Shown: positions 52,501 to 57,536 of the stretch, one piece after another
Layout of the letters: each line of letters opens with the position of its first letter
How positions within the stretch are numbered: the stretch's first letter is position 1
From: Zoogloea sp.
Lineage (GTDB): Bacteria; Pseudomonadota; Gammaproteobacteria; Burkholderiales; Rhodocyclaceae
Direction of reading: 5' to 3'
NCBI GenBank assembly: GCA_016703645.1
Contig: JADJBR010000004.1
Location: forward strand, 186,001 to 250,000
Length of the DNA stretch: 64,000 nt
The notes under the pieces: generated by a model
The model's database searches: none
What the model was told of the DNA's origin: nothing
Seen by the model: only the letters and a program-made list of their open reading frames with translations
Position numbers and translations under genes: made by a program

Positions 52501-54441
52501 ATGTCACCCCGCAAGCCCCGCAAACAGGTCTACGTTTCGTCCACCTTTTCCGATCTGGAGCAGCACCGGGCTTACCTGAAGCTCGCACTGGAGAAGGCTG
52601 GCTACGACGTGGAGTGCATGGAGCGCTACCCCGCCTTCGATACGCGCCCGGCCGACAAATGCCTGGCCGACGTGGCCGCCTGCGATGTGTATGTGGTGCT
52701 GGTGGCCCTGCGCTACGGCCACATCCCCGCTGAAGACAACCCGGCTGGCAAGTCGATCACCGAGATGGAGTACGACAAGGCGGTTGAAACGACACGCCCG
52801 AAGCTCGCCTTCATGCTCGACATCGACATCGACGACGAAAGCTTCGGCTGGCCGCGCAAGCGCTGGGACGAGGACTGGCAGGACGCCAACTCAAACATCG
52901 CCCGTTTCCGCGAGCGGGTAGGCAAGGAACTCGGCCGGGCGCTCTTTACCACCCGGGAAAGTCTTGCCACCGCGGTCCTGCAAGCCCTGCGCCAGCAGGA
53001 AATTGCGGAGATGCCCGCCGGAGAGCGCGACCACGCCCAGATCCGCGAGGCCTACCTCGATTGGCTTCGACAGAGCTGCAACAGCGTTGAACTATTGGGG
53101 TTGGACCTCGGACAGTCAGCGGACATCGACCTGGAGCACGTCTATGTGCCGGCCGTCACTGATCGGGACGTGTCGGCAGCGCCGCACGCAATGGAGTCCG
53201 CCAAGAAAGGGCCTTTCCTCCTGCTTGAGGCCCTGGGCCACAGCCCGCTCTACGTGCCCGGCCATGCGGGCTCCGGCAAGTCCACCTTCTGCCGCTGGGT
53301 GGCCCGGGTGGTGGCCGAAGGGCAGGTGCCGGACCACCGGGGCTTTCCTGTTCCTGATGACATGGCGGCTTTCCGCGAGACACTGCCTGCACGGCTCGTC
53401 GGCAAGCTGCCCATCCTGTGCCGTCTGCGGGATTGGGCGAGCTACCCCGAACTGCTGACAGGCAAGGGGTGGACCCGCGCGCGCCTGGAGAGCAGCCTCT
53501 CCGGCTGGCTGGACAAGACCACGCCAGGGGGGTTCACCGGCAGTGCATTCCTGAAGGAACTCTCCGCTGGCAATTGCCTGCTGATCCTGGACGGGGTGGA
53601 CGAGGTGCCGGAGCGTATTCGCGATCAATTCGGCATGGATCATTGGCCCCAGGACAACCTGATGGTCGGCCTCGCCGATGCCATGCCCGTGTGGCGAGCG
53701 GCGGGAAACTGGCTGCTCCTGACCAGCCGGCCCGCCAACGGGCCTTCCGCCGAGCAGCAGCGCAGCCTTGGCCTCCAGACCGCAGAGATCGCTGAACTGC
53801 CCACTGAGTTGCAGGCGCTCTTTGTACGCCGCTGGTTTGAGGTGGTGCAGCCTGCCAGGGCCGAGGCGCTTTCCGACGGTCTCTGGCGTGAGATGGACGC
53901 GGTGGGACAGATAGGGGTGATCCGCGGCAACCCCATGCTGCTTGCCGCCCTCTGCGCAATCTATGCCCATGGCGCGCGCCTTCCCCGGGACGTTCTGACC
54001 CTTTACGACACGGTGATCCAGCAGGTGCTGTGCAAGCGCTTCAAGGCGGATCACGAGACGGCCCGGCACCGCCTTGCCGCCATTGCCTTTGGCATGCATG
54101 GTCATGGTGATGGAGCGACACCCGCAGCCGAGGTGAGCGAGGATCAGCTCGACCGCATCCTTGCCCGATTCACCGGCAAGGACCTTGCCACCGACGATGG
54201 TTTCAACGCGGTGCAGGAGATTCGTCAGGGCTTGCTGGAGCGCTCCGGCCTGTTGCTTTCCCGTGGTGGTGCGGCGTGTTGTCTTCTACCACCTGAGCTT
54301 CCAGGAATTTCTTGCCGCGGAGTGGCTCAATCGACGCTCTCCCTCCCTTGGTGCAGTGCTGCAGAAGTACACACCCATGCCCGCCTGGCGGCTCACCTTG
54401 CGTTTCCTTTCCGGATTTCTCGCCCGGCGCGGGGAGAGTGA
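52501..54441 (+). CDS. DGR target 1, N-terminal part: DUF4062-NACHT NTPase (frameshifted)
   Basis: From MSPRKPRKQVYVSSTFSDLE the frame encodes a DUF4062 domain (residues 9-95), a linker, then a NACHT-type STAND NTPase with Walker A GHAGSGKST near residue 256 and Walker B LLILDGVDEVPE near 360. These are features of immune-type receptors that oligomerise on ligand recognition. Near 54262-54285 homology jumps from this frame (LLERSGLLLSRGG) to the +1 frame (VVFYHLSFQEFLAAEWL). The tail from there to the stop at 54441 is nonsense. The intact gene would run to 55450. The shift may be genuine decay or a sequencing error; no homopolymer lies at the site. Confidence 0.85.
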   Translation: MSPRKPRKQVYVSSTFSDLEQHRAYLKLALEKAGYDVECMERYPAFDTRPADKCLADVAACDVYVVLVALRYGHIPAEDNPAGKSITEMEYDKAVETTRPKLAFMLDIDIDDESFGWPRKRWDEDWQDANSNIARFRERVGKELGRALFTTRESLATAVLQALRQQEIAEMPAGERDHAQIREAYLDWLRQSCNSVELLGLDLGQSADIDLEHVYVPAVTDRDVSAAPHAMESAKKGPFLLLEALGHSPLYVPGHAGSGKSTFCRWVARVVAEGQVPDHRGFPVPDDMAAFRETLPARLVGKLPILCRLRDWASYPELLTGKGWTRARLESSLSGWLDKTTPGGFTGSAFLKELSAGNCLLILDGVDEVPERIRDQFGMDHWPQDNLMVGLADAMPVWRAAGNWLLLTSRPANGPSAEQQRSLGLQTAEIAELPTELQALFVRRWFEVVQPARAEALSDGLWREMDAVGQIGVIRGNPMLLAALCAIYAHGARLPRDVLTLYDTVIQQVLCKRFKADHETARHRLAAIAFGMHGHGDGATPAAEVSEDQLDRILARFTGKDLATDDGFNAVQEIRQGLLERSGLLLSRGGAACCLLPPELPGISCRGVAQSTLSLPWCSAAEVHTHARLAAHLAFPFRISRPARGE

Positions 54442-56261: not shown

Positions 56262-57536
56262 TCACACGATGGGGGGCGCGCAACACAACCGAAATCCCAG
56301 ATTGTCGTCGCGGAGGCCGGGGGAGTCCCAGCGGCGGTAGGCGGCACGGCAGCCGTCGGAGCCGTCGATCCAGGAACCGCCACGCACCACCTGCGAGTCA
56401 CTGCCTTCTTCCCAGGCTCGACCGTCGTCAGGTGCGCCCAGGTAACTGTCGTGCCAGGTGTCCTGCACCCATTCCCATACATTGCCGATCATGTCATGGA
56501 GCCCGAAGGCATTGGGAGCAAAGCTGCCGACCGGGCTGGTTTGGCGGTTGCTCCATTGGCTCCCCGAGCCATCGAAATTGGCCTTGTTCTTGCCCGGCGC
56601 GTCGCCCCAGGGGTAGCGGGTCTGGCTGCCAGCGCGGGCGGCATATTCCCACTCGGCTTCGGATAGCAGCCGGTAGGGCTGGCCGGTTCGGTCGCGTAGC
56701 CATGTCACGTAGGCCTGGGCATCGTTCCAGCTCACGTGGATAACGGGCTGGCGGCCACGTCCCCAGCCTTTGTCATCCGGCCTGTGTGTTGTAGCGCTCG
56801 CCGCAACAAACGCATCCCATTCGGCAAACGTGATCGGGTAGCGTCCGACGGCGAAGGGGCGGGCGATGGTCACTTCATGCCGTGGTCCCTCATCCGTGCT
56901 GCGACCTTTTTCATTTTCCGGCGAGCCCATCAGAAAGCGCCCGGCCGGCACCACTACCAGTTCGGGGAAGTCCGGGCCGTGGCGGAAGACGGTGCCGGGG
57001 GCCGGGAGGGCGTTGGCGACCGGAATGTGCGGGGGTGAGGTGACGGCTGGTGGGGCAACGATGCGGCCGGCGCCGTGGGCGGGTATTCGCCCCAGCGCCT
57101 TGACCAGCTCGCCTACGTCGTAATCCCAGCGTTTGTCGGTGATCTCGTGGGCGTTGCGGCGGACCAGCGGTTTGAGCGCATCGGGGAGCTGATTGCCCCT
57201 GGGCAAGGCTGCGCCACCCACGAGCACGGGGACGACACGCAAGTTGCCCTGCAGGCCGGTAAGGATTTCGATGCGCACCCAGTCGTCTTCGTCGTCGATA
57301 CGGCGGCCACCATGGGGGTGTTGCACGTCGAGCCAGCGCGGGCCGATCACCACCAGCAGCACGGCACAGTGGCCGAGGGCTCGTTCGATGGCGATGCCGA
57401 AATCTTCGCCGATCTCGATGGAGGCGATGTCGTGGAAGACCGGCCGGTCGGGCAGGTCGCGTTTCAGATCGGCGGCCAGGCGGCCGGCCCAGCCGGCGTC
57501 CACCTCGTGGCGATAGCTGATGAAGAGGCCAGACAT
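56262..57536 (-). CDS. DGR target 2: TIR domain-formylglycine-enzyme-fold protein
   Basis: An intact 424-residue protein. An N-terminal TIR domain (residues 1-130: GLFISYRHEVDAGWAGRLAA, then VLLVVIGPRWLDV) is followed by a linker and a C-terminal FGE-sulfatase fold from about residue 185 (LVVVPAGRFLMGSPENEKGR, LLSEAEWEYAARAG, DMIGNVWEWVQDTW). The final 45 residues (VVRGGSWIDGSDGCRAAYRR to the end) are the variable region. TIR domains in bacteria commonly signal or cleave NAD on activation. The diversified lectin-like domain would be the sensor. It converges with the TR/RT region and with target 1. Confidence 0.92.
   Translation of the reverse strand: MSGLFISYRHEVDAGWAGRLAADLKRDLPDRPVFHDIASIEIGEDFGIAIERALGHCAVLLVVIGPRWLDVQHPHGGRRIDDEDDWVRIEILTGLQGNLRVVPVLVGGAALPRGNQLPDALKPLVRRNAHEITDKRWDYDVGELVKALGRIPAHGAGRIVAPPAVTSPPHIPVANALPAPGTVFRHGPDFPELVVVPAGRFLMGSPENEKGRSTDEGPRHEVTIARPFAVGRYPITFAEWDAFVAASATTHRPDDKGWGRGRQPVIHVSWNDAQAYVTWLRDRTGQPYRLLSEAEWEYAARAGSQTRYPWGDAPGKNKANFDGSGSQWSNRQTSPVGSFAPNAFGLHDMIGNVWEWVQDTWHDSYLGAPDDGRAWEEGSDSQVVRGGSWIDGSDGCRAAYRRWDSPGLRDDNLGFRLCCAPPIV
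56267..56397 (-). repeat. DGR variable repeat 2 (VR2)
   Basis: On the minus strand it aligns with the template repeat with 15 of the 24 core adenines changed. All core differences fall at template adenines. Outside the core there are a few non-adenine differences: G to A near the 5' edge, and T to A and G to T near the 3' edge. It encodes the variable C terminus of target 2. Confidence 0.94.

Follow-up and report, generated by a model that had tools for sequence, protein, structure and literature searches.

The window analysed here, a stretch of 64,000 nucleotides from Zoogloea sp. (contig JADJBR010000004.1, positions 186,001 to 250,000), most probably carries the remnant of a diversity-generating retroelement (DGR). 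The template repeat (TR) and two predicted immune-type receptor genes placed head-on are kept, the reverse transcriptase (RT) is a fragment and Avd is gone. Both receptors were likely diversified at one time, and they are probably frozen now because the RT persists only as a fragment. The locus is best read as a retired example of an already known DGR type. In the following, W denotes the window and G000 its genome, other G numbers are genomes, L numbers are loci and P numbers are proteins. All of the window results come from a single assembly.

The single TR is accompanied by two variable repeats, VR1 and VR2, which lie on opposite strands as had been predicted (Table 1). The identity to the TR is 86% for VR1 and about 85% for VR2. 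The mismatches are centred on template adenines, with 18/19 for VR1 (hypergeometric p 1e-14) and 17/22 for VR2 (p 1.2e-10), and this adenine-specific pattern is consistent with the original prediction. At non-A sites, VR1 differs from the TR only once (1/106 non-A sites) and VR2 five times. The sole non-A change of VR1 locates near its 3' end and is common to VR2, as expected for a VR-specific end. The TR-VR similarity ends at the 5' edge of the VRs. Beyond the 3' edge, about 78 bp are common to VR1 and VR2 and have no counterpart at the TR. VR and flank form the inverted repeat I1, which is 210 bp long and 90% complementary (arms 55315-55524 and 56188-56397).

The RT core is deleted from the locus. 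RVT_1 has 16 matches across the genome, and none of them is inside the window. What is left is the C-terminal end of a DGR RT, ~115 residues long. In a comparison with four related RTs, this remnant aligns to residues 270-383/390 of the L078 RT, residues 264-378/378 of L086 and residues 168-257/263 of L079 (66%), and scans of Pfam and NCBIfam at E<=1 returned nothing for it. Relative to L029, a locus of the same genome, W lacks about 1.2 kb at a single point; the deletion edges are the end of the spacer (Sp) box at 55890 and position 55923, where the DNA match to the RT starts again. Avd has no match in the window, although 70 of the 80 related loci carry one. Of the cognate RT and the accessory protein expected of a DGR, the window thus has a C-terminal fragment of the former and no match to the latter. 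The Sp remnant is 82% identical to that of L029 over 73 columns. In related loci, the Sp box is followed by a hairpin, whose stem has 9 bp and whose loop resembles CTGGATTCGYTCCC, and which adjoins the Avd stop in L029; the hairpin survey returned no such hairpin for the window or L080.

Table 1. Coordinates of the retroelement locus, given as positions of the window
Feature	Position	Strand	Remarks
Target 1: DUF4062-NACHT-FGE receptor gene	52501-55450	+	two frames: 52501-54441, 54161-55450
VR1	55314-55446	+	18/19 mismatches to TR at A
3' flank common to VR1 and VR2, with GC-rich hairpin (predicted by folding)	55447-55524	+	
TR	55617-55749	+	133 bases, 27 A; sole non-A-site fit to the VRs among five genome TRs compared
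Sp (spacer) remnant after TR	55750-55922	+	conserved box about 55819-55890 (18-locus alignment)
RT C-terminal remnant	about 55884-56183	+	core deleted; start overlaps Sp end (protein and DNA matches begin differently)
VR2 3' flank, inverted copy of 55447-55524	56188-56265	-	
VR2	56266-56398	-	17/22 mismatches to TR at A
Target 2: TIR-FGE receptor gene, 424 aa, uninterrupted frame	56262-57536	-	VR2 at its end

The Pfam matches agree with the predicted architectures of the two receptors. VR1 closes a reading with DUF4062 (E 6.6e-22), NACHT (1.7e-10) and FGE-sulfatase (1.1e-43), and VR2 closes a protein with TIR_2 (E 2e-10) and FGE-sulfatase (E 1.3e-61). The NACHT gene has a frame break, which was located between 54239 and 54264 by comparison with G010. 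Its unbroken relatives are 1039 aa (L057) and 980 aa (P0121) long, and the latter, labelled Zoogloea sp., is 97% identical to the N-terminal piece of target 1 over 91%. The main genes shared by W and the sister species G010 (the two flanking genes, TIR-FGE and the longer neighbours) are uninterrupted in one frame, with split shadow frames (antisense or past gene starts) left uncounted. A high error rate is therefore unlikely, and one isolated error is possible.

An AlphaFold2 model of TIR-FGE was built from 54 sequences (alignment A1) and has a mean predicted local distance difference test score (pLDDT) of 85.6 and a predicted template modelling score (pTM) of 0.61. Foldseek matched the FGE part of the model to PvdO, FGE and Treponema denticola variable protein 1, and the profile match of target 2 to the last protein was 5e-27. 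Together with the FGE-sulfatase domain, these matches support the C-type-lectin-like fold that had been proposed as the target scaffold. A sequence-profile search matched the TIR part to SARM1, and E90 of this part, the putative catalytic residue, is invariant in the TIR-FGE alignment. PADLOC at 0.001 gave no match for TIR-FGE, the DUF4062-NACHT piece or the NACHT-FGE of G010; both L029 targets match TIR-bearing PADLOC models, weakly. In a whole element, RT and Avd would make an error-prone copy of the TR RNA, with changes at A, and both VRs would then be replaced by the complementary DNA (cDNA). The FGE tip would bind a ligand, which may come from a phage; oligomerisation would fall to the NACHT module, and NAD hydrolysis to the TIR module with its invariant glutamate. 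With the deletion in place, the receptors would behave as fixed genes.

Comparison with relatives indicates that the locus was diversified in the past. VR1 of W differs from that of G017 at 21/27 TR-A sites and 7/106 others, from that of G010 at 17/27 and 16/105, and from that of G016 at 19/27 and 19/106. For TIR-FGE, the best 120 of 189 protein hits were listed, and 53 of these plus the window protein make up alignment A1. In pairwise comparisons of 17 TIR-FGE proteins (W and P0001-P0016), the TR-A codons differ in 81% of comparisons, versus 14.5% for the other VR codons, 23% for the rest of FGE and 13.5% for TIR. For all 54 aligned proteins, the values are 87% for the TR-A codons, 30% for the other VR codons, 35% for the rest of FGE and 40% for TIR. 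The VRs of related species are thus not identical, and they vary at TR-A sites well above background for VR1 and TIR-FGE alike, which is in line with what the original prediction asked of related strains.

At present the locus is probably not active. P0001 is 96% identical to W over TIR-FGE, and 0/17 variable residues are changed between them while 16 other residues differ. In contrast, 12/17 variable residues are changed in P0002 (91% identical) and 13/17 in P0003 (87%). The chance of 0/17 is about 1e-9 at the W-P0002 rewriting rate and 0.53 at the background rate, and VR2 looks frozen in this comparison. With all 17 variable residues of VR2 unchanged, the RT reduced to its C-terminal end and Avd missing, the idea that a functioning element feeds two signalling pathways is not supported.

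Several points weigh against a retired locus. The unchanged VR2 residues match the background expectation (p 0.53), which would disfavour frequent rewriting and be compatible with slow rewriting. VR1 differs from P0121 at 13/46 residues, compared with 21/263 in the rest of FGE. The single non-A mismatch of VR1 (1/106) means that its rewriting is recent relative to the G010 split (16/105), so that either the RT was lost very recently or VR1 is still written in trans. The last rewriting of VR1 was likely more recent than that of VR2, because VR1 has fewer non-A mismatches (1 versus 5) and is 13/46 residues off P0121.

The genome has other DGRs which could act on the locus. G000 contains five further loci with TR-like matches beside RTs (L029-L033), four of which pass the A-bias test; the TR-like repeat of L033 has a decayed look. 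Two of the loci have distant VRs on the same contig, with 15/18 at A for L037 and 15/18 for L036, and the targets of the set are of FGE type. L029 has a TR, an antisense Avd, an RT and two head-on targets, and its RT, the closest to that of W, has a frame break. In the same genome, L034 (G000:C4:97-102 kb) is a series of FGE-domain genes without detected TR.

With these loci at hand, the local TR RNA could be copied by the RT-Avd of another DGR of the genome, and the cDNA would enter VR1 and, more rarely, VR2. The further loci and distant VRs, together with a VR1 almost without non-A changes, are consistent with such rewriting in trans, and activity of this kind has been proposed for Thiohalocapsa by Dore et al. 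(PMC10907252). However, the local TR alone fits the VRs, with 1 non-A mismatch over 133 columns for VR1 and 4 over 131 for VR2, and the four other TRs give 10-23 over the aligned parts (five TRs compared, L033 left out). The L029 RT has a frame break, its C-terminal half shares 29-40% identity with the other RTs, and the conserved Sp hairpin is missing from the TR RNA of W. Rewriting in trans is rather unlikely, and retirement of the locus is favoured over it.

Another source of a broken locus could be a mixed population, in which an intact form coexists and the broken haplotype was assembled. Intact and broken haplotypes were seen together by Dore et al. (PMC10907252), and a whole NACHT-FGE at 97% exists (P0121). 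We consider a mixture quite improbable, as no repeat was found at the deletion junction, G010 is likewise without RT core, and the main genes common to W and G010 are uninterrupted in one frame. A DGR functioning in cis with two targets would explain the TR, the VRs and their expected mismatch pattern, but it is very improbable and refuted for this assembly by the loss of RT core and Avd. A simple duplication or gene conversion at the 3' end of FGE, with no DGR involved, could account for the 78-bp flank common to VR1 and VR2; this was rejected as extremely improbable, given the share of mismatches at A and the RT remnant and Sp box beside the TR.

The probable retirement of the locus can be followed in the genus through the slot between its two flanking genes, which we take to be a phosphoenolpyruvate synthase gene and a hydratase-like gene. 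The second flanking gene has a strong match in 14/23 genomes, six of which were judged, the other eight being without the first flank in the stretch examined. The slot of W holds both targets, the TR and the RT tail. G010 holds both targets and the RT tail with no separate TR, and its TIR-FGE may extend at the end into 3' sequence resembling a TR. G016 has NACHT-FGE alone, G001 has TIR-FGE alone, and G019 and G011 have neither target. Across these related species, the slot thus represents different stages of loss. The RT tail of G010 is on the plus strand, with targets and flanking genes on the minus strand, which is reversed relative to W. This orientation was compared over L057:11346-11814 and window 55617-56397. 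The TR-RT cassette may have been inverted via the inverted VR-plus-flank repeats.

None of the four close members of the RT lineage in the genus is whole (W, L029, G005 at a contig end, and G008), compared with 60/80 loci elsewhere. The genus count left out four genus-mates with weaker matches (32-38%), and a whole RT required one stop-free match over most of the RT, with a natural stop in the alignment scored as a break. In this loss series within one genus, the receptors outlast their diversifying machine. Natural strains thereby have a once-hypervariable sensor that is likely fixed, and comparison with relatives that have varied tips would allow tests of what diversification is worth and which ligand the fixed tip binds.

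The layout of the locus had been thought unusual, and this did not hold up in a survey of RT relatives. The C-terminal half of the L029 RT was used as query, and the best 80 of 299 related stretches were kept. A TR/VR pair was found in 54/80 loci with a thresholded finder; the 26 loci without pair include some on short contigs, and the 54 may be 53, since L141 and L143 share coordinates and may be one sequence. The head-on layout, with one VR just upstream on the TR strand and another downstream on the opposite strand, occurs in 22/54. The remaining loci have an upstream VR alone (25), a downstream opposite VR alone (3) or neither (4). FGE was found in 38/39 target proteins scanned, and the exception, from L113, is probably misframed. 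Among 18 usable target pairs, 12 differ in Pfam domains (L118 being included via a below-cut-off trypsin match), 2 differ in length only and 4 are alike. The pair count omits L079, L113, L123 and L128 (a member short, misread, cut or unscanned) and the third targets of L093 and L132. The L108 pair combines DUF4062-NACHT with TIR-NACHT, and the L078 pair combines TIR-nSTAND1 with a short TIR-FGE, the latter like W. Many of the RT relatives have head-on pairs, an antisense Avd or a covarying spacer hairpin, and the commonness of these features bears on how one template can serve two sensors.

Two-target STAND/TIR conflict DGRs, broken loci included, are already published (PMC10907252). Thiohalocapsa has nine DGRs with NACHT, nSTAND1, TIR and FGE in the targets (Dore et al. 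2024, PMC10907252), and in clade 5D two targets per locus are common and broken loci were reported. The clade-5 (mainly 5D) conflict DGRs of multicellular bacteria resemble W in their FGE/CLec-ended STAND and TIR targets, two per locus, in the several DGRs per genome, in the loci without RT or TR, and in the aggregate-forming hosts, with Accumulibacter and Nitrosomonas named. In contrast to them, W keeps a local TR without RT core and Avd, its host is Zoogloea, and one of its targets is a short TIR-FGE without NTPase. W is a candidate for clade 5D by its two FGE/CLec targets, which carry a STAND NTPase or TIR. The text of PMC10907252 has neither 'orientation' nor 'opposite', and the head-on layout may be drawn in its figures. 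The literature search returned nothing pairing DGR with Zoogloea, nor DGR with convergent or opposite target genes.

Three further systems were compared with W. The BPP-1 type DGR shares the A-specific TR-to-VR change and a spacer after the TR, and it is described as an avd-TR-brt operon (PMC12875486), whereas the RT relatives of W have Avd antisense to RT and W itself lacks RT core and Avd. L078 of Candidatus Accumulibacter contiguus also has STAND-FGE and short TIR-FGE head-on around one TR; unlike W, its RT frame (390 aa) and Avd are present. L080 of Thauera sp. UWPOB_THAU1 likewise keeps TR and Sp box, with Avd not found and the N-terminal part of RT missing, but the deletion junction is another one and a second VR was not found. 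In L080:7716-8423, TR and Sp box are joined to the C-terminal part of RT.

The head-on pair might also be a rate splitter, in which one template would rewrite the co-directional receptor fast and the head-on receptor slowly, an idea that we regard as doubtful. The difference in rate would stem from a preference of retrohoming for targets that run with replication. Co-directional targets in E. coli had 7.6-fold and 24.6-fold higher A-directed changes, and the authors propose differential rates across several targets (PMC12875486). A rate splitter would give the cell one searching and one remembering sensor, and the inverted VR-plus-flank repeats would let the TR-RT cassette flip between the receptors, as the RT-tail orientation of G010 suggests. 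In W, VR1 is predicted to be co-directional and is fresh, and VR2 is predicted to be head-on and is stale. Beyond this genome the idea was unsupported. In the test set of 24 loci (W, L029 and 22 head-on loci), the VRs have 25 non-A mismatches on the same strand versus 40 on the opposite strand (Wilcoxon p 0.07) and 428 versus 414 A-site changes, and no correlation to local GC skew was observed (rho 0.20, p 0.36). Head-on loci with consistent skew were mixed: W and L029 fit, L116 and L099 oppose, and L084, L088, L091 and L120 are ties.

The direction of TR and RT themselves is suggestive of co-directionality with replication, as predicted from GC skew. All of the 6 TRs or TR-like repeats of G000 (on C4, C7 and C10) are on the predicted leading strand, L033 being counted though decayed; the skew beside L029 has opposite signs on its two sides. 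In other genomes, 10/15 RTs are co-directional by mean skew sign (14/80 loci, those on longer contigs), or 8/11 when the mixed-sign loci L079, L094, L103 and L157 are dropped. The pooled value of 14/17 gives p 0.006 versus 0.5 and p 0.046 versus an assumed gene bias of 0.6.

The hairpin of the related loci is at the 3' end of the TR spacer in several phyla, for example at L078:6907-6938 and L079:6993-7024 (alignment A2). For the covariation set, 30/48 related loci were chosen by eye for clean stems, so that pairing of the outer stem is selected. Three inner pairs, which are outside this selection, also pair, with compensatory changes at two; one of them is A-U in 13, G-C in 10, C-G in 2 and U-A in 2 loci. 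Rfam returned nothing in window 50000-60000, and in seven related loci it returned a tRNA and a group II intron and nothing at the Sp hairpin. Avd (PF22296 bAvd in L029) is antisense to RT in 70/80 related loci, and avd sits between TR and RT in the loci inspected. A TR RNA extending into RT would run antisense to avd. In the RT of L084 (L084:7113-8504), roughly 80 residues are inserted in frame between residues 96 and 97 of the query.

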